Shown: positions 1 through 21,962 of the stretch, in pieces
How positions within the stretch are numbered: the stretch's first letter is position 1
Layout of the letters: each line of letters begins with the position of its first letter
From: a virus
IMG/VR virus record: IMGVR_UViG_3300047550_005050
Span: 1-21,962 of that record
Length of the DNA stretch: 21,962 nucleotides
Direction: 5' to 3' (one strand)
Made by a program: the position numbers and the translations under genes
Notes under the pieces: generated by a model
Databases searched by the model: none
The model's input: only the letters and a program-made list of their open reading frames with translations
What the model was told of the DNA's origin: nothing

Positions 1-3000
1 CCATATAACCTACTTAACGATTATTCTTCATATCCATACTTACAATTACCAAACGATCTAGATCAAACACTGGAAGTAAAATATGCATCTCCAGGTAGAA
101 TTGAAAGTGTTGGAATTGTAACTGGAGGAACAAATTATAAAGTAAATGATAAAGTAGTTTTTGATGAAGAAGGAACTCGTGGATTTGGATTTACATCAAA
201 GGTTTCCAGAATTGGTGGAAAGAAAGTAAATTCAATTAGCGTTGCAACTTCTTCTCTTTATAATGCCGAAATTTATTCCTCAGAAGGAAATAAAAATGGA
301 TTCATCATTCAATCAGATTCTCCTCATAATTTTTTAAATAAGGATATTGTTGTAATTTCTGGATTGAATACATCCACATCTTTAATTGGTGGTTCATATG
401 ATATAGGTGTATTAAAAAATACTTTATCACTTTCTAATCCATCTGGAATATCATCAGACGGTGTTACTGGTATAGTTACCTTTATTTCGGTTTCAGGTAA
501 TCTAGATTACTCTACAATAAAAGAAAATGATGTATATTTGATTGGAAACGAAAGAATTAAGATTTTAAATATAGATAGAAATTCTTCAAGAATTAGGGTT
601 TTAAGATCTATTGATGGAACTGTTGGGTCTGCACATAGTTATACTGACATTCTATATGAGGATCCCAGAAGACTTTCCATAAAAGTGGGGAATACTACTT
701 CATATGGATATAAAGTAAATAAAGAAATTTACTTTGACCCTAAAGAATCTGTAGGATTGGGTACTATTTCGGGAGTTGGAATTGGAATAACAATTTCTTT
801 TGCAAATCCTGGTGTTGGAATAACACAGATCTTTATTCCAACAAGATCAATCTATATTCCAAATCATAATTTACAAACCGGAGATGTTTTAACATACTCT
901 ACAAATTCAGGATCTTCTATTTCAATTTCAAATGATGGAGTAACATCATCATCTCTTGCTGACCAATCTTTGGTTTATGTTGCTAAAATTACAAATGATT
1001 TAATTGGAATATCAACTGTAAAGGTTGGTCTTGGAACTACTGGAACTTTTGTTGGAGTTACTTCTGCAACATCTTCGATCAGCACTCTATACTTTACTGG
1101 AATAGGAACAGGTTTTTATCATAGCTTTAAGACCAACTATCCAAAATTAACAGGAAATATATCTAAAAATATAGTAACCGTATCGACAGCACAAACGCAC
1201 GGATTAACAAATAATGATTACGTTTTTGTAAGTATAAATCCGGGTATTTCAACTACCGTTGTTGTTAAGTATGATGATTATAACAGAAGAATTTTAATAA
1301 ATCCAAGAACATTTGTTTCAGGTGATATTGATATAAATGCAAATACAATAACGATTGTGAATCATAATTTTGAAAATGGTCAAGAAGTTGTTTATACTTC
1401 TGGATCTCCATCCGGTGGATTAGTGAATAATAAAATTTATTATATTGTAGTTTTTGATAAGAATACGGTTAAATTATCTGCTTCTTATTTTAGTGCAATA
1501 AGTTTAAGTCCAGATATAGTCAATATAACATCTGCTTCTAGTGGAACTTTGTCGCCAGTAAATCCACCAATCAAAACTTATAAAAATTCTACAGTAGTAT
1601 TTGATCTATCAGACTCCTCTTTATCATATATTAATGAATCGATTAGATATTCTGCATTCGAATTTAATTTATATACTGATCCAAATTACACTCAAATTTT
1701 TGACAAATCACCAAATAGTAAAACTTTTGAGGTTATAAAATCTGGTAGAGTTGGAATTGATTCTACGGCTAAAATTACATTAACCGTAAATGAAAATATT
1801 CCAGAAAAATTATTCTATAAGTTAGATCCTGTTTATGCAAGTACCCTACCATCAATAAAGGAGGAAGTGAGTGTAGACTCATCTGTTCTTGCAAATAACC
1901 AAGTTCAAGTTGTTTTTAGTGAATATAATGGAAAACATAGAGTAACTTCAACTTCTTCAACAACATTTACATATAATCTTGAAAGAGATCCAGAAGCATC
2001 ATCATATACTTCTTCATCAAAGTTTAATTATGAAACAACATCCTTATCTGCACTTGGACCAGTATCTAAAGTTGATATTACATCAAAAGGTCAACAATAC
2101 TCAAGTATTCCTAAGTTTTCCAATATAGTTTCTTCTAGTGGATCTGGTGCTATTTTAGAGGTATTCAGCAAATCTGTAGGAAATGTTCAAAAGACAAAAT
2201 TAAATAACATTGGATTTGATTTTTCTTGCGATTCTACGGTAAGACCAAATATAGCTCTTCCACAAATTTTAAAAATTGAACCACTCAATTCAATTGAGTC
2301 TATTGGAATTACTTCAACTGGAAGAGGTTATTCTACTGCACCAAAACTAATAGTTATAGATGGCAAAACAAAAGAAGTTTTACCTGAAGTAGATCTTCAA
2401 TATTCACTTGGAGACACTTATGTTACTATTTTGAAGAATACATATAGACTTAATGATATTGATCCTATTATCATTCCAACTCAAAATTCAAATGGGGTTG
2501 GAATAGCATCTATTACATATGATTCCGTAACAAAGGATGTAATTGTTGAATTGTCTGTTGGATTTAGTACTGCAAGTTCATTCCCATTCTCGGTTAATGA
2601 TAGAATTTTAATTGAGAATATTAGTATTGGTATTGGTTCTGACGCAAAAGGATTTAATTCCAGTGAGTATGATTATCAACTTTTCACAATTACTTCAATA
2701 GATCCAAATATCGGCGGAACTGGATCTGTTACCTATAATCTTGCAGAATTCTTAACTTCTGACGAAACTCCAGGAACTTATGATGATATTAATTCCTCCG
2801 GAAGAATTATACCAGAAAAATATTTCCCTAGATTCAACGTTACATTGAGTCCAAATAACTTCTTAGTAAATGAAGAGGTTAAGTATTCAAATCAATCAAC
2901 ACCTCTGGGAATTGCTGAAGATTGGGACGAAAAAACTAAGTATCTTAAGGTTTCTTCTAGAGAAGTTTTAATTGAAGGTAATATTATTGAAGGAGTTTCT

Positions 3001-6000
3001 TCAAAAACTCAAGGTAGAATTTCAACTACATTTGGATCTTATGGATTTATTAATCTTGCCCCATATTCTAAAGTAGAAGGTGGATGGACAACTGAAACCG
3101 GAATATTGAATAATGAATTGCAAAGAATTCAAGATAATTTCTATTATCAGAATTTCTCATATTCCCTAAAATCAAAAGTTCCCTACAGCACTTGGGAAAA
3201 TGCAGTTGGATCTTTAAATCATACGGCAGGATTTAAGAAATTCAGCGATTATCAATTAGAATCATTTGGTTATTCCGGAATCAGTACAGATGCGGTCTCT
3301 GTTTTAGATGCAACAGCAGATCTCTATGGATTTGCAAGTTTAAATTGTGTTTATGATTTTGATCTAGCTAAAGAAAATGCACTAGTAATTGGATCTAGTA
3401 CGTATTCCGATGAAATAACTTTTTCAAGTAGAGTACTTACTGATTATTTCGAATCTGTCGGAAACAGAGTACTGTTTATTGATGATATAAGTGGTCAATT
3501 TAATAGCAATCCAAGATCAACAAGATACTCTATAGTTCACAGATTCCCATTGACAGATGCTCGTGCCCAAAAATACATCGCTTATATAAGAGATCGGAGA
3601 TATTTTGCCCAAAGGCAAATGATGGTCTTCACCTTGCTTCACGATGATAGTATTGGTTATTTAAATCAATATGGTAGAGTTGAATCGGTTTATGACTTAG
3701 GATCTTTTGATTTTTCTATAGATGGAACTGATGGATTAATACTTTTCTATCCAGTAAACTATAGAGTAAATGATTATGATGTCACAACTCTTTCATATAA
3801 TTTAAAGGACAATCTTTCTGGTGTAGGAAGCACCACGTTGGGTAATATTGTAACTGTAAGTACCGATACTATTATCATTCCTCCATCGACGGCAACGCCA
3901 ATTATTAGTATTGGAACTACCTATACTTCATCTAAAGTTTTAGTTGAAGTTTCTACGGAAGATAAAAAGTATCAATATAATGAACTGACTTTAATTCATG
4001 ATGGAACAAATATAGAACTTTTAGAATATGGTCAATTAACTAATCATTCTGTAGATTCATATTCAAGTTCTGGTCTTGGTTCATATTTCCCATATTTCTC
4101 AGGATCAGAGTTAAAGGTTAATTTCATTCCTAATGTTGGAACAGCAGCATCTGTAAGTATTATTCAAGTTTCAATAGCAGATACAACAGTTTCCGGAATT
4201 GGAACGTTTGATCTCAGATATGCAAGATTTGAAGCCAGATCAACTTCTATCGCTTCTACTACATCTCCAACAGAAAATATAGTTGCCGAGTATCCAGATA
4301 ATTATGATGGGGGATATTATATTGTTCAAGTTTCCGATACAACAAACAATAGACATCAATTATCCGAAGTTGTTGTCTTAGATGATGAAAATAATGCATT
4401 TATTACAGAGTTTGGAAACGTCGAAACACATTCTGGTCTTGGAACTATTGGTGCATCAAAAACTGCAAATTCGACTAGACTAACGTTTACTCCTCTTCCA
4501 GATATTGACGTTCAAGTTAAAGTTTACTTCAATACTTTAACTAATTTCGATGAGACTAATGTAATAACACAATACAATAACAATACAGCGACTTCAGATT
4601 ATGGTACATATTATGGTACTGAAAGAGACGTAAAACTCTCATTTGAACTTAAGCATCAAGGATATCCAATTTTCAAAAGATATTTCAATGGAAGTGATTC
4701 AACAGTCGTAAGTATTGCTTCAAGTACAATTAGAATTCAAAATCATTTCTTTGTTACTGGAGAGAAAGTTACTTATTCTGCAGGCGAATCTACAGCAACT
4801 TCCTCACCTATTGGAATTACAACTACTGATTTTGGTGTGGGCATTGGCACTACAGATAAACTTCCATCGACAATTTATATTGTTAAAATTGATGAAAATA
4901 CAATTAAACTTGCAAAGAGTGCTGAGGATGCTCTAAAGACTGTTCCAGATGTAATTACGATGACCTCAGTTGGAATTGGAACTAGTCATTCACTGACTTC
5001 CTTCACTCAAAATGCAAAGGCACTTATTTGTATTGATAATGTAATACAATCTCCTGTAGTATCAACATCAACTACAACACAATTATCAGCAAATCTACTT
5101 TCCGTAGATGATCTATTATACTCAAATTCTACTCTGGACTTCTTTGCTGGAGACCTAATTCGTATTGATGATGAGATAATGAGAATAGAATCTGTTGGTG
5201 TTGGTAGCACTAATGCAATTCGTGTTCAAAGACCTTGGCTAGGAACTGAAATTACCAGTCATTCAATTGGTACTTCAGTTACAAAACTGAACGGAAACTA
5301 TAATATAATTGATAATACAATTACTTTTGTCGATGCACCTTATGGAAACACCCCAATTGGAACATCCACAAATCCACCAGATGAAAGAGATTGGGTCGGA
5401 ATTACTTCATCCTCTTCCTTCCATGGAAGAACTTTTATGAGATCTGGTGCGATAGATTCTTCAAATGAACCATATCATAAGAACTATGTTCTAGATGATA
5501 TTTCTTCAGAATTCAGTGGATCTCAAAATACATTTACACTGACTTCAAATAAATCAAACATTTCTGATATTTTTGAAGAGAATGCTATTATACTAGTTAA
5601 TGAAATATTCCAAGAGCCAGGATTAACAAACAATTATACTTTATCGGAATCAGTTGGAGTAACCTCAATTTCTTTTGTTGGATCTGCAACTTCACAACCT
5701 TCCGATATCAACTCATCAAATCTTCCCGCTGGAGGTATAATTGTCTCTGTTGGATCCACAGAAGGACTTGGATACCAACCTCTAATCTCTGCTGGAGGAA
5801 CTGCTATTGTATCTGCAGCGGGAACCATTTCTTCGATCAGTATTGGTAATAGTGGTTCTGGTTATAGATCTTCAATACAAACTTTAAGTGGAATTGCAAC
5901 TGTTATTGTTAGAGTTGGAGTTGCAACATCATCAACAGGAACTCCTAATATTGAATTCATAGGAACTGCTGCAGTTAGTAATGGTAATATTGTAAGTATT

Positions 6001-7854
6001 GCTATTACCAACCCTGGAGTTGGATACACATCATCTAATCCACCACAAGTAATTATTGATGCTCCACTATCATATTCAGACATTCCTCTCATTTATAGTT
6101 CATCTTCATCAGGTATAGGAACTCAAGCTACTGTAGATATCGTTGTTGGACAAGGATCCAGTGTAATTAATTTTGAAATTAAAAACACTGGATATGGATA
6201 TAAAGTTGGAGAAATTCTAACAATTCCAACAGGTGGTGCTACTGGAATTCCAACTACACCAAATTCAACATTGAGACAATTCCAAATCACTGTTGATATT
6301 GTGGATAGAGACAAGTTCTCTGGATGGACAATTGGTGAATTGGAAGTGTTTGATAATATTGAAAGACTTTTCGATGGAAAGAGAGTCATTTTCCCATTAT
6401 TATTGAATGGAACTCTCACTTCAGTATATGCTAAAAAAGGATCTCTTATTAAGATTCAAGATGTACTTCTAGTCTTTATAAATGATATTCTCCAAATTCC
6501 AGGAGAAGCATATATTTTCAATGGCGGAAGCAAGATAGAGTTTACCGAAGCACCGAAACCAGAGGATACTTGTAAGATCATATTCTATAAGGGAAGTGGT
6601 GAGGGTGTTGATGTTATATTCAGAGATGTTGTAGATACTGTGAAAAAAGGTGATGATTTACAATTAACTTACGATTCTTCTGTTGGTCAATCACCAACTC
6701 TGTTAGAAGATGAAAGAAAAGTGACCGATATTTTATCAATTGAAACTGTTGAAACTAATCCATATTTTGGACCAGGAAATACTTCAGATACAACTTTATC
6801 AAGACCAATAAATTGGTGCCGACAAACTGAGGATTTGATTATTAACGAAAATGATGTAACAAAGGATAGAGAGTTTTATGAGCCACATATCTTCCCAACA
6901 ACTTATCTAATTCAGTCTGTTGGAATTGGATCTACCGTCCTTTATGTTGAGAATTTAAGACCTCTATTCAATGCAACAAATGAAAACAGCGTTTCTTTAG
7001 ATTTCCAAAAGAATATTACATTCATTTCACAGGATTCTAAAGTTTCTGCGAGTGCAACTGCTGTTGTATCTGCAGCAGGAACAATAACATCTATTAGTAT
7101 TGTAAGTGGTGGATCTGGTTATGTTACTGCACCAAATGTGAGCATTCAAAATCCCGTAGGAGTAGGATCTACTACTTCCACGGCAGTATCCTCTATAACT
7201 TCTGGAATTGTTACATCTATTTCCTTAACGGGCATTGTTACTGGATATTCTCAAGATAATCCCCCAGTAGTTCTGATAGAACCCCCAATTATTCAAATTG
7301 AGAGTGATAAAGTTGTTTCTTATGAGGGTGATTTTGGAATAATTAGTGGAATATCCACAGTTTCTGTCGGTGTTGCTTCTACTGGATTAGTTTTTGACTT
7401 CTTTATTCCAAAGAATTCTCCTCTCAGAGAAGGATTGATAACTGGAATCACAACAGTAAGTGGTATACAAACTGGATATTATTTTGTAATTTCCAATTCT
7501 AATGTTGGGAATGGAGTAACATCTCTGAATAGTAATGGATCGATTGTTGGATCTGGAACAAGTTTCCTTGATGGAGTTTACAGAGTTGCTGCAGTTTCTA
7601 TAGCACAAACATCTACCGTTGGTTTTGGTGTTACATATGTTGCTAAAGTAACGGTTAGTGTTTCAAGTTATAATGGATTAACTGGAATTGGTTATAGCAA
7701 TTACTATGGTAACTTTAGCTGGGGAAGAATATTCCTCAGATCAAGATCACAAGTAGCACAATATAATGCATATACTAATGGCGGATACTCCGGAATTTCA
7801 ACTGGAACAATTATAACTAGAACTGCTCCACTAAAATACTCAAATTACCTTTAA
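1..7854 (+). CDS. Giant T4-like phage baseplate/tail structural protein, 5' partial
   Basis: The frame is open from base 1 with no stop before TAA at 7852, so the gene begins left of the window. The ATG at 364 is only an internal methionine. At least 2617 residues are visible. I infer a virion protein of the baseplate periphery: it sits immediately before gp8, where T4 carries gp7 (about 1030 aa), but I cannot show homology to gp7. The protein is Gly/Ser/Thr/Ile-rich and beta-like, with no membrane segment or signal peptide. Visible pieces, numbered from base 1: repeated NHxFxxGxxVxY units (near residues 109, 289, 455, 1582), about eight GY-type repeats, a conserved-looking block near 1040-1090 (HTAGFKKFSDYQLES), another near 1177-1226 (HRFPLTDARAQKYIAYIRDR), a PWLGTEITSH module near 1745, and the C-terminal segment with WGRIFLRSR and RTAPLKYSNYL. 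The C-terminal segment resembles large structural proteins of cyanomyoviruses as I recall them. The virion role is fairly secure; the exact position is not. Confidence 0.75.
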   Translation, partial: PYNLLNDYSSYPYLQLPNDLDQTLEVKYASPGRIESVGIVTGGTNYKVNDKVVFDEEGTRGFGFTSKVSRIGGKKVNSISVATSSLYNAEIYSSEGNKNGFIIQSDSPHNFLNKDIVVISGLNTSTSLIGGSYDIGVLKNTLSLSNPSGISSDGVTGIVTFISVSGNLDYSTIKENDVYLIGNERIKILNIDRNSSRIRVLRSIDGTVGSAHSYTDILYEDPRRLSIKVGNTTSYGYKVNKEIYFDPKESVGLGTISGVGIGITISFANPGVGITQIFIPTRSIYIPNHNLQTGDVLTYSTNSGSSISISNDGVTSSSLADQSLVYVAKITNDLIGISTVKVGLGTTGTFVGVTSATSSISTLYFTGIGTGFYHSFKTNYPKLTGNISKNIVTVSTAQTHGLTNNDYVFVSINPGISTTVVVKYDDYNRRILINPRTFVSGDIDINANTITIVNHNFENGQEVVYTSGSPSGGLVNNKIYYIVVFDKNTVKLSASYFSAISLSPDIVNITSASSGTLSPVNPPIKTYKNSTVVFDLSDSSLSYINESIRYSAFEFNLYTDPNYTQIFDKSPNSKTFEVIKSGRVGIDSTAKITLTVNENIPEKLFYKLDPVYASTLPSIKEEVSVDSSVLANNQVQVVFSEYNGKHRVTSTSSTTFTYNLERDPEASSYTSSSKFNYETTSLSALGPVSKVDITSKGQQYSSIPKFSNIVSSSGSGAILEVFSKSVGNVQKTKLNNIGFDFSCDSTVRPNIALPQILKIEPLNSIESIGITSTGRGYSTAPKLIVIDGKTKEVLPEVDLQYSLGDTYVTILKNTYRLNDIDPIIIPTQNSNGVGIASITYDSVTKDVIVELSVGFSTASSFPFSVNDRILIENISIGIGSDAKGFNSSEYDYQLFTITSIDPNIGGTGSVTYNLAEFLTSDETPGTYDDINSSGRIIPEKYFPRFNVTLSPNNFLVNEEVKYSNQSTPLGIAEDWDEKTKYLKVSSREVLIEGNIIEGVSSKTQGRISTTFGSYGFINLAPYSKVEGGWTTETGILNNELQRIQDNFYYQNFSYSLKSKVPYSTWENAVGSLNHTAGFKKFSDYQLESFGYSGISTDAVSVLDATADLYGFASLNCVYDFDLAKENALVIGSSTYSDEITFSSRVLTDYFESVGNRVLFIDDISGQFNSNPRSTRYSIVHRFPLTDARAQKYIAYIRDRRYFAQRQMMVFTLLHDDSIGYLNQYGRVESVYDLGSFDFSIDGTDGLILFYPVNYRVNDYDVTTLSYNLKDNLSGVGSTTLGNIVTVSTDTIIIPPSTATPIISIGTTYTSSKVLVEVSTEDKKYQYNELTLIHDGTNIELLEYGQLTNHSVDSYSSSGLGSYFPYFSGSELKVNFIPNVGTAASVSIIQVSIADTTVSGIGTFDLRYARFEARSTSIASTTSPTENIVAEYPDNYDGGYYIVQVSDTTNNRHQLSEVVVLDDENNAFITEFGNVETHSGLGTIGASKTANSTRLTFTPLPDIDVQVKVYFNTLTNFDETNVITQYNNNTATSDYGTYYGTERDVKLSFELKHQGYPIFKRYFNGSDSTVVSIASSTIRIQNHFFVTGEKVTYSAGESTATSSPIGITTTDFGVGIGTTDKLPSTIYIVKIDENTIKLAKSAEDALKTVPDVITMTSVGIGTSHSLTSFTQNAKALICIDNVIQSPVVSTSTTTQLSANLLSVDDLLYSNSTLDFFAGDLIRIDDEIMRIESVGVGSTNAIRVQRPWLGTEITSHSIGTSVTKLNGNYNIIDNTITFVDAPYGNTPIGTSTNPPDERDWVGITSSSSFHGRTFMRSGAIDSSNEPYHKNYVLDDISSEFSGSQNTFTLTSNKSNISDIFEENAIILVNEIFQEPGLTNNYTLSESVGVTSISFVGSATSQPSDINSSNLPAGGIIVSVGSTEGLGYQPLISAGGTAIVSAAGTISSISIGNSGSGYRSSIQTLSGIATVIVRVGVATSSTGTPNIEFIGTAAVSNGNIVSIAITNPGVGYTSSNPPQVIIDAPLSYSDIPLIYSSSSSGIGTQATVDIVVGQGSSVINFEIKNTGYGYKVGEILTIPTGGATGIPTTPNSTLRQFQITVDIVDRDKFSGWTIGELEVFDNIERLFDGKRVIFPLLLNGTLTSVYAKKGSLIKIQDVLLVFINDILQIPGEAYIFNGGSKIEFTEAPKPEDTCKIIFYKGSGEGVDVIFRDVVDTVKKGDDLQLTYDSSVGQSPTLLEDERKVTDILSIETVETNPYFGPGNTSDTTLSRPINWCRQTEDLIINENDVTKDREFYEPHIFPTTYLIQSVGIGSTVLYVENLRPLFNATNENSVSLDFQKNITFISQDSKVSASATAVVSAAGTITSISIVSGGSGYVTAPNVSIQNPVGVGSTTSTAVSSITSGIVTSISLTGIVTGYSQDNPPVVLIEPPIIQIESDKVVSYEGDFGIISGISTVSVGVASTGLVFDFFIPKNSPLREGLITGITTVSGIQTGYYFVISNSNVGNGVTSLNSNGSIVGSGTSFLDGVYRVAAVSIAQTSTVGFGVTYVAKVTVSVSSYNGLTGIGYSNYYGNFSWGRIFLRSRSQVAQYNAYTNGGYSGISTGTIITRTAPLKYSNYL
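5836..6230 (+). repeat. GY-type protein repeats in giant structural protein, first cluster
   Basis: The translation carries three successive units of the form I-x-I-x-N-x-G-x-GY: SISIGNSGSGY (from about 5836), SIAITNPGVGYTSSNPPQVII (from about 5995) and FEIKNTGYGYKVGEILTIP (from about 6172). The first is preceded by an Ala/Gly-rich strand, AIVSAAGTIS. Earlier, more diverged copies lie near 100-210, 2068-2166 and 2299-2362. They look like short beta-hairpin or beta-prism units. The fold is inferred. Confidence 0.7.
7045..7290 (+). repeat. GY-type protein repeats in giant structural protein, second cluster
   Basis: Two further units are encoded here: TSISIVSGGSGYVTAPNVSI and TSISLTGIVTGYSQDNPP. 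The strand before the first reads SASATAVVSAAGTITSI and is almost the same as SAAATAVVSAAGTITQI in the neck protein gp14 (19236-19286). In these 17 codons there are 2 amino-acid differences and 9 synonymous differences, so this is a conserved protein module and not a recent DNA copy. Confidence 0.7.
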
Positions 7855-18236: not shown

Positions 18237-19643
18237 ATGTTAAATCCATTCTTTCTTCAGGGATCAAGATCAGAACAAGGTCTAATTCAAGATCTTATCA
18301 ATGAACAATTGAGAATGTATGGGGTTGAAGTTTATTATCTACCAAGAAAGTATATTACTGAGAAAACTGTAATAAAAGAATTAATAGAATCTCAATTTAC
18401 AAATGCTTATCCAATAGAGGCATATATTGATACTTATGAAGGATATGGAGATAATCCAACTATATTATCAAAATTTGGTATTCAAGCACTCAATGAAATA
18501 AATCTTATAATATCAAGAGAAAGATTTAAAACTTATATTTCTCCACTTATAAACAATCAACCAAATATTAAACTATCTTCAAGACCAAAGGAAGGAGATT
18601 TAGTATATTTTCCTTTAGGAGATCGTTTATTTGAAATAAAATATGTTGAGCACGAAAAACCGTTTTATCAACTACAAGGATTATATACCTATGAGCTAAG
18701 ATGTGAACTCTTTAGATATGAAGATGAAGTTATTGATACTGGTATAGAAGATATTGATGATAATATAAGCGGAAGTGGTGGAACTGATTCGGTTCCGGTT
18801 GGAAATATACAAAAACTTACTATGGTTGGAGTTGGAATAACAGCAAGTGCAATTACTGGAATTGTAAATGGTGGTATTAGATTCATAACCATTACAAATA
18901 GAGGTGGTGGTTATACAAGCACTCCAACTGTTGGTATTTCTTCTGCTCCATCTGGAGGAAAGACTGCAACTGCTGTTGCAAAAATGATTGGTGGAATAGT
19001 CGTATGTAATGATAACACAAATCCAGCAGCACAATCAGTTCAGAATGTAGAAATAATAAATCCTGGATATGGTTATACAGTTACTCCCGGAGTTAGATTT
19101 ATTGGAGGTGGTGGTAATGGAGCGACTGCAACTGCAACTCTTGGTGACGGAATTGTTGGAATAATTACTGTTACAAATTCAGGATCTGGATACGTAACTC
19201 CTCCTCAAATTACATTTACTGGAATTTCTAGTGTCTCCGCCGCTGCTACTGCAGTAGTTTCTGCGGCAGGAACAATCACTCAAATTAGAATTACAAACGC
19301 TGGTCTTGGATACACTACAACTCCAACGATTACAATTGCAAGTCCATCCATAGTTTCTTCCGGAACTTTTACTTTCAACGAAATTGTTGTTGGATCGCAA
19401 AGTGGAGTAAGTGCAAGAGTAAGATCTTGGAATGCATCTACTAATATTCTTGAGGTATCAAATGTTAATGGACAATTTATTCCAGGAGAAGATATAGTAG
19501 GAGCTGCATCCAGTGCTTCGTATCGTCTAAGAGCAATTGATACATTTGTGGTGAAGGACGGATTTGCTAATAATGATGAAATTGAAGAAGAAGCAAATGA
19601 TATCATTGACTTCAGTGAAATAAATCCTTTCGGAACACCATAA
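18237..19643 (+). CDS. 14: Neck protein gp14 with large repeat insertion
   Basis: Partner of gp13 in the neck. The first 180 residues (MLNPFFLQGSRSEQ, VYYLPRKYITE, GDLVYFPLGDRLFEIKYVEH, FYQLQGLYTYELRCELFRYE) are the gp14 core, and the last 17 (NDIIDFSEINPFGTP region) are its usual ending. At 468 aa it is much longer than T4 gp14 (256 aa). The extra residues, about 190-440, lie between core and ending: four GY-type repeats (about 213-370), then a GQSGV-type unit, NEIVVGSQSGVSARV to FIPGEDIVGAASSA. The insertion has the same repeat type as the giant protein, gp8 and the DUF4815 protein. The start follows gp13 by 3 bases with only a weak AGG upstream, so coupling is likely. Confidence 0.9.
   Translation: MLNPFFLQGSRSEQGLIQDLINEQLRMYGVEVYYLPRKYITEKTVIKELIESQFTNAYPIEAYIDTYEGYGDNPTILSKFGIQALNEINLIISRERFKTYISPLINNQPNIKLSSRPKEGDLVYFPLGDRLFEIKYVEHEKPFYQLQGLYTYELRCELFRYEDEVIDTGIEDIDDNISGSGGTDSVPVGNIQKLTMVGVGITASAITGIVNGGIRFITITNRGGGYTSTPTVGISSAPSGGKTATAVAKMIGGIVVCNDNTNPAAQSVQNVEIINPGYGYTVTPGVRFIGGGGNGATATATLGDGIVGIITVTNSGSGYVTPPQITFTGISSVSAAATAVVSAAGTITQIRITNAGLGYTTTPTITIASPSIVSSGTFTFNEIVVGSQSGVSARVRSWNASTNILEVSNVNGQFIPGEDIVGAASSASYRLRAIDTFVVKDGFANNDEIEEEANDIIDFSEINPFGTP
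18874..19347 (+). repeat. Four GY-type repeats inside gp14
   Basis: Translated units: FITITNRGGGYTSTPTVGI, NVEIINPGYGYTVTPGVRFI, IITVTNSGSGYVTPPQITF and QIRITNAGLGYTTTPTITI. Spacing is about 37 to 54 residues, and Ala/Gly/Thr-rich strands (TATAVA, GATATATLGDG, SAAATAVVSAAGT) separate them. This is the most regular array of the motif in the window. Confidence 0.85.
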
Positions 19644-19687: not shown

Positions 19688-20689
19688 ATGTTTGAGTATT
19701 TTTACCACGAAATTTTAAGAAGAACCGTTATATCTTTTGGTTCTCTCTTTAATGAAATAACCATTAAACACACAAATAATAGCGGAGCTGTTACTAGTGT
19801 TATCAAGATTCCTCTTGCATATGGTCCGACTCAAAAATTTCTTGCAAGACTAGAACAGTCTCCAGATTTGAATAAACCAGTTCAAATTACATTACCAAGA
19901 ATGTCTTTTGAATTTACTGGTTTAACTTACGATCCAACAAGAAAGGCAACAACTACTCAAACATTTACCGCAAAGTCTGTAACTGACGGAACTGAGACTA
20001 AAAAAACTTATCTCCCAGTTCCATATAATATGCAGTTTGAACTTAGCATTATGTCTAAGTTAAATGACGATGCTTTACAAATTATTGAACAAATTTTACC
20101 TTACTTTCAACCAGCATATACGATGACAGTTGAGTTGGTTGATGAAATTAATGAGAAGAGGGATATTCCTGTAGTCTTGGAAAACATTACGATGCAGGAT
20201 GATTATGAAGGGAATTTCACAACGAGAAGGGTATTAATTTATACCCTAAGATTTACAGTAAAAACATATCTATTTGGACCTGTTTCTTCTGCAACCAAAG
20301 ATATTATCAAGAAAACAACCATTGGTTATGTTGCTGGAGATACAACAAATACTCCCACAAGAGAAATTGTTTATTCAGCAGAACCAAGAGCTATCAAAAA
20401 TTATACTGGCACAATCGTCACAAATCTCACCAAAGATATTACTACAGAAGACATTTTGATTACTGTAGATAATGCGAGTTCAATTCTTGCAAATACATAT
20501 CTTGATTTAGAAGGTGAGGAAGTATATGTAAGATCTAAGGCAGGAAATATTCTTACCGTAGATAGAGGAAGAGACGGTACAACTATAACGTCTCACTTGG
20601 CAGGATCAGCAGTTAAGTCTATTACAACTACCGATAATACTTTAATAGAAGATGGGGATGATTTTGGTTTTAGTGGATCTAACTTTTGA
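19688..20689 (+). CDS. 15: Tail terminator and sheath stabiliser gp15
   Basis: In T4, gp15 forms a ring that caps the finished tail tube and sheath and joins the tail to the neck. The N-terminus MFEYFYHEILRRTVISFGSLF parallels T4 gp15 (MFGYFYNSSFRR). The middle block ALQIIEQILPYFQPAYTM, followed by EKRDIPVVL near residues 128-165, is the family's clearest signature (T4: QIVEQILPYFQPHF and KRDIKIVL). Length is 333 aa against 272 in T4. The extra C-terminal part, about 246-312, is a separate module: DILITVDNASSILANTYLDL, a GEEVYVRS strand, then DRGRDGTTITSHLAGSAV. It resembles a segment of the giant protein at bases 5092-5290. An AAGG ribosome binding site lies 10 bases upstream. gp16 follows after 6 bases. 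Confidence 0.93.
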   Translation: MFEYFYHEILRRTVISFGSLFNEITIKHTNNSGAVTSVIKIPLAYGPTQKFLARLEQSPDLNKPVQITLPRMSFEFTGLTYDPTRKATTTQTFTAKSVTDGTETKKTYLPVPYNMQFELSIMSKLNDDALQIIEQILPYFQPAYTMTVELVDEINEKRDIPVVLENITMQDDYEGNFTTRRVLIYTLRFTVKTYLFGPVSSATKDIIKKTTIGYVAGDTTNTPTREIVYSAEPRAIKNYTGTIVTNLTKDITTEDILITVDNASSILANTYLDLEGEEVYVRSKAGNILTVDRGRDGTTITSHLAGSAVKSITTTDNTLIEDGDDFGFSGSNF

Positions 20690-20695
20690 TGACCT

Positions 20696-21130
20696 ATGAA
20701 AATGACTAAAAAATTTGATAAACTCAATGAATCCTTTAATGTCGATGGAGATATAATTCCAGTCGAATCTAAAAGTGAAATTCAAAAAATAGAAACAATC
20801 GCCTCAACTGTAGATGATATCAAAAAAGATTATGACTATACAAGGGGCAATCTTTATTCTCTTATAGAAAAGGGTCAAGAAGCAATCAACGGAATCTTAG
20901 AACTTGCCCAAGAAAGTGAAATGCCCCGTGCTTATGAAGTTGCCGGACAACTTATTAAAAACGTTGCTGATGCAACGGATAAACTAATGGATCTTCAAAA
21001 AAAATTAAAGGATATTGAAGAAGAAAAGGTAAAAGGTCCCACAACTGTTAATAACGCACTTTTTGTTGGATCTACAGCAGAATTAGCAAAGTTACTTAAG
21101 CAACAAACTCAAAACCAAATTGATCAATAA
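20696..21130 (+). CDS. 16: Terminase small subunit gp16
   Basis: In T4, the small terminase recognises concatemeric DNA and regulates the large subunit gp17 during packaging. This 144-aa helical protein shows the marine T4-like gp16 pattern: acidic N-terminus, YDYTRGNLYSLIEKGQEAIN, the central AQESEMPRAYEVAGQLIK helix, a KLMDLQKKLKDIEEE coiled-coil segment, then TVNNALFVGSTAELAKLLKQ. It is slightly shorter than T4 gp16 (164 aa). The start may be ATG 20696 or ATG 20702; neither has a clear ribosome binding site, and the short gap after the gp15 stop suggests coupling. The expected partner gp17 is not in the window, because a different gene follows. Confidence 0.88.
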   Translation: MKMTKKFDKLNESFNVDGDIIPVESKSEIQKIETIASTVDDIKKDYDYTRGNLYSLIEKGQEAINGILELAQESEMPRAYEVAGQLIKNVADATDKLMDLQKKLKDIEEEKVKGPTTVNNALFVGSTAELAKLLKQQTQNQIDQ

Positions 21131-21137
21131 ATAAATA
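21126..21137 (+). promoter_or_regulatory. Putative double late promoter for the last gene
   Basis: Two overlapping AATAAATA cores (21126-21133 and 21130-21137). The gp16 stop TAA (21128) lies within the first. The next ATG is 17 bases after the second core, and AAGG at 21138-21141 may be a distant ribosome binding site. Confidence 0.6.
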
Positions 21138-21154
21138 AAGGTTCATTTATATCA

Positions 21155-21962
21155 ATGAATAAAATTAAATCTCATAAAACAGTTGAACAAATTGCAAAGA
21201 AGCATCGTCTTGATGCTTCTTTTATACAGAAGCAACTTGATATGGGAGAACCCATTGAACATGAACACACTAAAGATCATGATCTTGCTAGAGACATTGC
21301 TCTTCAACATCTAGATGAAATTCCAGATTATTATACTCGTTTGAAAAAAATGGAAGCAGATGCTAAAAAGCATCATAAAAAATTTAAAGATGTAAAGTCC
21401 GTAAAAGAAGAAGAAGAAATTGATATGGATGTTCCAATGCATTCAGTGCATTTAGAACAAGATAAAAGATACTGCCCAAAATGCAAAAAAGTAGAACTTA
21501 GAAGTCAGTGTAAATATGGACCAACTTATTGGGACATATATTCAATTCCAGAAAAACTAAAGGAAGAAACCATGCAAGAAGAAAAAAGATACTGCCCTCT
21601 TTGTGATAAAAGAGAAACAAGATCAGAATGTTCTTATGGTGAAAAAGCATGGGACAAAGTTTCTATCAAAGATCATGAATATTCAATGGTAAGATCAGAA
21701 CTTAAAACTCTTATGAGTGCTGCAAAAAGACTTAATGCAAAGGTAGGTAAAGGTGAAGGTAATTTAGAAGCGTGGGTGCAATCAAAAATTACTAAAGCCG
21801 CAGATTACATTGATACTGCAGCAGATTACGTTGCATCTGGAGAAATGGAAGAACAAAAAATCATTGATAAAATTTTATCAGAACTTCAAGAAGGTGAAAA
21901 GAAGGGGTTGTGGTATAACATTCACAAGCGTAGAAAGGCAGGTCTTCCACCAAAAAAACCAG
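21155..21962 (+). CDS. Modular Cys-motif protein, 3' partial, function unknown
   Basis: The frame runs from ATG 21155 to the window edge without a stop (269 residues seen). Parts in order: residues 8-66, KTVEQIAKKHRLDASFIQKQ to PDYYTRLKKME, resembling the DUF5661 family; an acidic linker with EEEEIDMD; residues 105-131 and 145-171, two copies of RYCPxCxKxExRSxCxYGxxxWDxxSI; a helical block at about 175-230 (SMVRSELKTLMSAAKRL, EAWVQSKITKAADYID); and residues 250-269, KGLWYNIHKRRKAGLPPKKP. I recall the helical block and the GLW-NIH-basic segment as recurring in proteins of marine phages, often with no assigned function. The Cys pairs suggest metal binding, but only three Cys per copy are seen. 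The gene lies where gp17 would be expected. A role in packaging or head assembly is inference only. Confidence 0.85.
   Translation, partial: MNKIKSHKTVEQIAKKHRLDASFIQKQLDMGEPIEHEHTKDHDLARDIALQHLDEIPDYYTRLKKMEADAKKHHKKFKDVKSVKEEEEIDMDVPMHSVHLEQDKRYCPKCKKVELRSQCKYGPTYWDIYSIPEKLKEETMQEEKRYCPLCDKRETRSECSYGEKAWDKVSIKDHEYSMVRSELKTLMSAAKRLNAKVGKGEGNLEAWVQSKITKAADYIDTAADYVASGEMEEQKIIDKILSELQEGEKKGLWYNIHKRRKAGLPPKKP
21467..21667 (+). repeat. Tandem 27-residue Cys motif repeats
   Basis: The two copies (21467-21547 and 21587-21667) start 40 codons apart and share 16 of 27 residues, including all three Cys (C-x2-C-x8-C), the YG pair and the WD pair. The spacer between them is an acidic/basic helix (KLKEETMQEE). 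Confidence 0.85.

Follow-up and report, generated by a model that had tools for sequence, protein, structure and literature searches.

The window, by which we mean the whole 21,962-base stretch of this virus record, carries a T4-like late gene run with a gp8-type wedge protein, large tail proteins, gp13, gp14, gp15 and gp16, followed by an open reading frame (ORF) that is referred to below as the mosaic. The features at this end of the window are:

20696 to 21130, + strand: gp16, small terminase (PF11053, E 3e-9; phrog_445, E 4.3e-55), the anchor of the locus
21126 to 21137, + strand: two overlapping late-promoter-like octamers NATAAATA, starting at 21126 and 21130 (consensus match)
21155 to 21962, + strand: mosaic protein, N-terminal 269 aa, open to the contig end, the 3' end lying beyond the contig
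21167 to 21385, + strand: DUF5661 module, aa 5-77, alpha-helical (Pfam, module profile and structure model)
21401 to 21409, + strand: candidate gp21-type site VKE, after DUF5661 (junction motif scan)
21461 to 21547, + strand: Cys module copy 1 (C-x2-C-x8-C), aa 103-131 (module profile)
21557 to 21580, + strand: candidate sites LKE (21557-21565) and MQE (21572-21580), between both Cys modules
21581 to 21667, + strand: Cys module copy 2, aa 143-171 (module profile)
21671 to 21847, + strand: helical module EAWVQSKITKAADYIDTAADY, aa 173-231, abutting Cys copy 2 (profile and model)
21845 to 21892, + strand: linker with candidate sites MEE, LSE and LQE, holding the recurrent linker element IIDKILSELQE
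21899 to 21961, + strand: GLW basic module, aa 249-269, cut by the contig end (module profile)

The gap between the end of gp16 and the start of the mosaic ORF is 24 bases in the window. The doubled late promoter that a preliminary description of this DNA had proposed is present here as the two overlapping octamers, which match the NATAAATA consensus given in PMC2984593. An octamer of this kind lies within 60 bp upstream of the mosaic in 47 of 81 relatives, against an expectation of 0.021 per 60 bp, and two or more are found in 10 of the 81. In the relatives gp17 lies downstream of the mosaic, with none to several genes intervening; in T4, gp17 presumably follows gp16 directly. Two other genes of the run show extensions. 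The head closure gene gp14 (window 18237-19643) bears a C-terminal insert with GSGYTxxP-type repeats, which have matches in phrog_708, 701 and 5342, families of baseplate, fibre and virion structural proteins; the same kind of repeat occurs in the ORF at 1-7854. The gp15 product (19688-20689) extends at its C-terminus beyond the PF16724 match, which ends at aa 247 of 333, and this extension shows weak matches to tail-fibre and unknown families.

The preliminary description was accurate as to the parts of the mosaic ORF, in which we find DUF5661, two Cys copies, the helical block and the basic GLW segment. DUF5661 (PF18905) matches aa 11-67 in Pfam (E 6.4e-14, 52.5 bits against a cut-off of 27), and the sequence reading of 16 identical residues out of 27 between the two Cys copies stands. 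Relatives such as L004 and L033 have the GLW module in full. The AlphaFold2 model of the window protein has a mean pLDDT of 57 and a pTM of 0.30; DUF5661 alone is predicted with confidence (block means of 74-92 over aa 11-70), and the model shows a short beta hairpin for each Cys motif. For the full-length relative L003 the mean pLDDT is 47, with 481 of 772 residues below 50, as would be expected for beads on a string, and the model gives no functional clue. Foldseek against the PDB gave nothing at E ≤0.001 (best E 4.2), a PDB sequence search with the profile gave a single match at E 0.31, and NCBIfam gave nothing useful. Our literature search found no paper on DUF5661 and a single one for DUF6321, DUF5872 and phrog_727 combined, which is indexed under DUF5872.

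Relatives were collected as 61 phage records by tblastn and, from a contig search yielding 589 stretches, the best 80 of 589. A gp16 ORF shares the locus with the mosaic in 75 of 88 rows, two of the 88 being the window itself, and in named T4-like cyanophages the mosaic gene lies between gp16 and gp17. Complete relatives measure 428-1047 aa (median 577), so that the gene is only partly visible in the window. The gene bears the cluster number T4-GC119 in S-SM1, S-SM2 and P-HM1, and seven of the eight complete relatives scanned match phrog_727; this hypothetical protein of cyanomyoviruses is the same gene, in the same place and with the same C-terminal DUF6321, as the mosaic family. The question raised at the outset, whether this is a routine family already described in this place, receives a divided answer: the family is known here, but its annotated function is 'unknown'. 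Existing annotations of the relatives read hypothetical, virion or structural protein, and the gp16-gp17 interval is one of the four hot-spot regions named by Sullivan et al. 2010 (PMC3037559). A search of 84,980 bacterial and archaeal genomes with two narrow peptide patterns found no cellular relatives.

Using profiles of 14 modules built from the relatives, we found 36 module orders among 71 complete proteins and, in a later set, 37 orders among 86 complete proteins. The word 'mosaic' is thus well supported, the gene being a shuffled string of small modules of about 25-90 aa. Module order differs in 4 of 12 pairs whose gp16 is at least 95% identical, and L016 and L019 have different orders with gp16 99.3% identical. 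Module order turns over faster than the neighbouring gp16. DUF6321 is usually the C-terminal module and occurs once each in 22 of 26 whole records or large contigs; of the four records without it, G001 and G003 end in a KSHVV module instead, and neither module was found in Melnitz and Cr30. Eight module types have a median pI of about 10 or above (DUF6321, with a median net charge of +15, KSHVV, GLW, GWSEKY, GLRDWF, FWHPDP, CWGY and KKDACY), the HELIX and IEDA modules are acidic, and exactly two Cys are usual in six types. A recurrent linker element, helix-like, was found in 29 variants.

Two kinds of larger insertion were also seen. The mosaic of S-SM2 (L085:4701-6827) holds a DUF192 domain (PF02643, E 3.6e-24) inserted between x-E sites, apparently a foreign cargo domain. 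In L034:5001-7772, L058:3516-6113 and L027:4503-7646, an insert of ~280 aa interrupts the KKDACY module at ...WPSAYA / SGALVKC. The inserts have intein-like ends, that of L034 beginning with C and ending in ITGN before S; Pfam Hint matches them below the cut-off in L034 (E 0.007) and L058 (E 0.003), with no match in L027.

The C-x2-C-x8-C pattern is kept in all 68 distinct copies of the Cys module, together with an invariant Trp and Gly. It is true, as had been noted, that each motif holds only three Cys, and these are retained across all homologous copies. A fourth Cys lies inside the module in 5 of the 68, and no His is conserved across the copies. A fourth ligand from a second copy cannot be general, because 63 of the 71 complete mosaics have one copy (55) or none (8). 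The module, with three invariant Cys and no conserved fourth ligand, may or may not bind metal.

These observations bear on the idea, put forward in the preliminary description, that the mosaic assists gp16 and gp17 in DNA packaging as a zinc-binding cofactor. The position of the gene between gp16 and gp17 and the three invariant Cys are what such a cofactor could show, and DUF5661 bears a weak likeness to IF2_N or helix-turn-helix domains, in no case significant. The Cys module is nevertheless missing from 8 of 71 complete mosaics, the fourth ligand is not conserved, and in P-SSM4 the near-constant DUF6321 is found a long way from the packaging genes. We found no support for a packaging, terminase-like factor and regard this explanation as very improbable.

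A first reading of the joints showed that a hydrophobic residue, any residue and Glu recur just ahead of modules. The motif [ILVMF]xE is present at 330 of 361 distinct junctions and in 51 of 53 junction types, and the strict form [LI]xE at 163 of the 361; this count is taken without joints longer than 200 letters and split KKDACY pairs, and the CYS-HELIX joints, with a site in 3 of 20, are kept outside the total. By admitting V, M and F at P3, the relaxed motif goes beyond the L/I that has been published. In the later set of 145 loci, scored with unchanged profiles, [ILVMF]xE was found at 358 of 402 junctions (shuffled mean 215.8, maximum 238 in 200) and [LI]xE at 219 of 402 (shuffled mean 135.4, maximum 155); the same exclusions were applied, near-linkerless joints and sequences identical to the first set were also removed, and the set is new without being fully independent, because near relatives of first-set loci may remain.

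Columns anchored on individual modules, counted over contexts that hold the anchor pattern, gave the same picture. Before TGN, Glu is found in 36 of 39 contexts, the position two residues ahead of it holds V, I, M or L in 36 of the 39, and at least eight kinds of residue occur between them. Glu precedes DUF6321 in 14 of 15 and 29 of 31 contexts and FWHPDP in 6 of 6, and DUF5661 is followed by FKD[VI]xE in 42 of 47. In the DUF6321 contexts of the later set Glu is present in 36 of 42, and the P3 hydrophobic residue in only 25 of 42. The junction Glu is fixed while the preceding residue varies. Inside modules such sites are depleted relative to shuffled sequences (ratio 0.27 for [LI]xE and 0.47 for [ILVMF]xE), more mildly so in the later set (135 [ILVMF]xE sites against 169 shuffled, sd 12). 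Most CYS-HELIX, short CWGY-IEDA and KKDACY-IEDA joints have no site. DUF5661 contains a conserved internal LDE (67 occurrences in 77 copies), which would need protection by folding.

The junction motif resembles the site of the T4 prohead protease gp21, which cleaves after L/I-X-E as described in PMC9026906. In the window, the linkers hold L/I-x-E consensus matches at LKE, LSE and LQE, which are candidate sites by sequence only. The density of pure [LI]xE was judged an insufficient test, since control ORFs of the same phages also exceed their shuffles (ratio 1.34 for [LI]xE and 1.19 for [ILVMF]xE), and we therefore relied on the anchored columns, the junction counts and the later set. The linker set itself was limited to 6-150 aa, 150 of 159 non-redundant linkers being kept. 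In the main texts of openly readable papers, no published description of the module anatomy or of the cleavage signature was found; both appear new in print, the gene having been known before as hypothetical, virion or structural.

This mild enrichment in ordinary proteins, and the records that label the mosaic a virion or structural protein, would suit an uncleaved multi-domain virion protein, a head, neck or tail accessory whose linkers are fortuitously rich in hydrophobic-x-Glu. Such a protein would not account for a Glu that is fixed with a variable P2 at non-homologous junctions, for the avoidance of sites inside modules, or for the separate genes described below, whose targeting leaders have junction-like ends, and we consider it quite unlikely. 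One of the labels belongs to S-SCSM1, the mosaic of which is called 'virion protein' in its record, and 45 virion proteins were reported from mass spectrometry of this phage (PMC9602691); the TGN neighbour in the same record is labelled hypothetical, not virion.

As regards the protease, gp21 was tested in two phages and is clearly a Peptidase_S77 in both, and the gp23 position matching the T4 cleavage is [LI]xE in 10 of 10 cyanophages (one aligned, the rest by reading), so the cleavage specificity seems to hold in these phages. In T4, a leader of 10-19 residues takes internal proteins into the prohead; the targeting sequence of IPIII is its first 10 residues, with positions 4 and 7 important to targeting and positions 8 and 10 to processing (PMC9026906). 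Both T4 ipII and ipIII start with MKTYQEFIAEA.

Small genes near the mosaic carry the same modules behind leaders like this T4 capsid-targeting sequence. The TGN genes, downstream of the mosaic, begin MKSFKQFLSE-S..., and the leader is present in 17 of 17 in the first set, a few of them duplicates, and in 16 of 17 in the later set. When 6,084 ORFs of eight genomes were scored against the T4 leader, three TGN genes ranked 1-3, with scores of 30, 29 and 28 compared to 21 for the best shuffled sequence. The GWSEKY genes, upstream of the mosaic, mostly start MKTFKQFQ[ED]. Asp occupies position 10 in 12 of 19 by reading, the Glu-form pattern fits 7 of 19, and MKTFKQFQED is found among the GWSEKY ORFs of L030, L053, L064-L067, L069, L070, L077 and L080. 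According to PMC9026906, a change of this kind in T4 IPIII blocks processing and leaves targeting intact; by this precedent the GWSEKY proteins with Asp at position 10 may be targeted and left unprocessed. P-TIM40 has a minimal DUF6321 gene behind the leader-like start MKNFAQYIEE-DWQ..., and in the later set 13 of 13 small DUF6321 genes hold, by reading, an M-[KR]-x-[FY] start leading to x-E, an earlier start codon being also open in three of them. Considering that DUF6321 stands behind leader-like starts, the joint before DUF6321 in mosaics corresponds to the leader end in single genes. The N-terminus of the window protein, MNKIKSHKTVEQ, lacks a capsid-targeting sequence, as do the other mosaics starting with DUF5661, and internal targeting-like stretches are rare in mosaics (score of at least 22 in 6 of 89, against 2.3 expected).

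Taken together, the junction Glu, the module shuffling and the leader-bearing neighbours make it probable that the window holds the start of a head-internal polyprotein that is cut by gp21 into small cargo peptides. Transcription from the late promoter between gp16 and gp17 would give one long chain of small modules on flexible linkers. During prohead maturation the S77 protease gp21 would cut after the Glu of [I/L/V/M/F]-x-E in the linkers, freeing the modules as small, mostly basic and often two-Cys peptides, of which at least some may stay with the DNA and probably be ejected together with the genome, in the manner of T4 internal proteins. A leader is missing from most mosaics themselves, so that they would have to reach the inside of the head in some other way, perhaps by means of the recurrent linker element.

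A prohead core (scaffold-like) protein, cut by gp21 for clearance like T4 gp22, gp67 and gp68 and with modules that are assembly parts, would be expected to show the same cleavage signature. Cleavage of the T4 core proteins yields many fragments (PMC9026906), and the helix-like linker element with its 29 variants would be at home in such a protein. Modules with invariant Cys, their exchange with separate leader-bearing genes, the DUF192 insertion in S-SM2 and the turnover of modules between near-identical phages all fit cargo better, and the S-SCSM1 mosaic is labelled a virion protein; we hold a core protein to be unlikely. The earlier suggestion of a head-assembly factor or a carrier of short functional tags was right in part. 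The tag carrier is well supported by the shuffled small modules; the head factor is supported in part, in that gp21-type sites at module borders and leader-bearing neighbours point to the inside of the head. The packaging role has no support, and cargo is favoured over an assembly role itself.

For the polyprotein cargo, the most likely role, by analogy with the anti-restriction protein IPI of T4, would be host take-over or counter-defence. More tentatively, and with somewhat less than even confidence, we propose a mix-and-match arrangement in which up to about eleven exchangeable peptides would be diced in the head and ejected as an anti-host kit, the same peptides also existing as single leader-bearing genes. 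On this view modules would pass back and forth between single genes, with one cargo behind one leader, and a single chain with many cargoes.

Like T4 IPI, IPII, IPIII and Alt, the mosaic has a cut signature in which P3 is hydrophobic and P1 is Glu; its modules are small, mostly basic and of fast turnover like the T4 internal proteins, and its neighbour genes have a targeting-like leader ahead of the same modules. The T4 internal proteins, in contrast, are each one protein from one gene, cut behind the leader, whereas the mosaic joins many modules in one chain, with a candidate site at nearly every joint and in most cases with no leader. The polyvalent proteins of phages and conjugative elements likewise have many domains per chain in shuffled architectures, and are thought to be packaged or delivered and then cut apart (PMC5512222). 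They hold embedded peptidases and enzyme domains, whereas Pfam found no peptidase domain in the window protein, eight mosaics and two further insert-bearing mosaics, and the mosaic would be cut in trans, by the prohead protease; the functions of its modules are also unlike known enzyme domains in being unassigned. In phiKZ and SPN3US, too, internal head proteins are substrates of the prohead protease, which cuts behind a short Glu-ending motif; these proteins have long propeptides and are sometimes cut several times (PMC5694885, PMC10052503); their pieces are propeptides for clearance, with the motif A-x-E in SPN3US, whereas those of the mosaic are conserved modules.

If the polyprotein reading is true, a gene annotated as hypothetical would amount to a collection of delivered peptides, sharply bordered and testable one by one, and the prohead protease would be used for cargo release from a polyprotein. 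It would also provide a sequence rule for spotting internal head proteins of marine phages. T4-like cyanophages are very common in the sea, and we found no paper on what they deliver besides DNA.

Related proteins were seen elsewhere in these phages. In S-B64, a HELIX-bearing protein of 250 aa near ribonucleotide reductase (L113:2318-3070) is labelled 'major head protein'; the label looks like a misannotation, and we set it aside as doubtful support for a head location. S-WAM2 has a second cluster (L114:735-4985), beside a cytidylyltransferase gene, with the leader-like starts MKDFKKLREE and MKTFKQLREE and with CWGY- and HELIX-type modules. Additionally, proteins of 370-409 aa with a leader-like MKSFxQFLxEA start are encoded in S-SCSM1 (88819-90048), S-SM2 (130761-131987) and S-T4 (98932-100044), and are candidate internal head proteins away from the mosaic locus.
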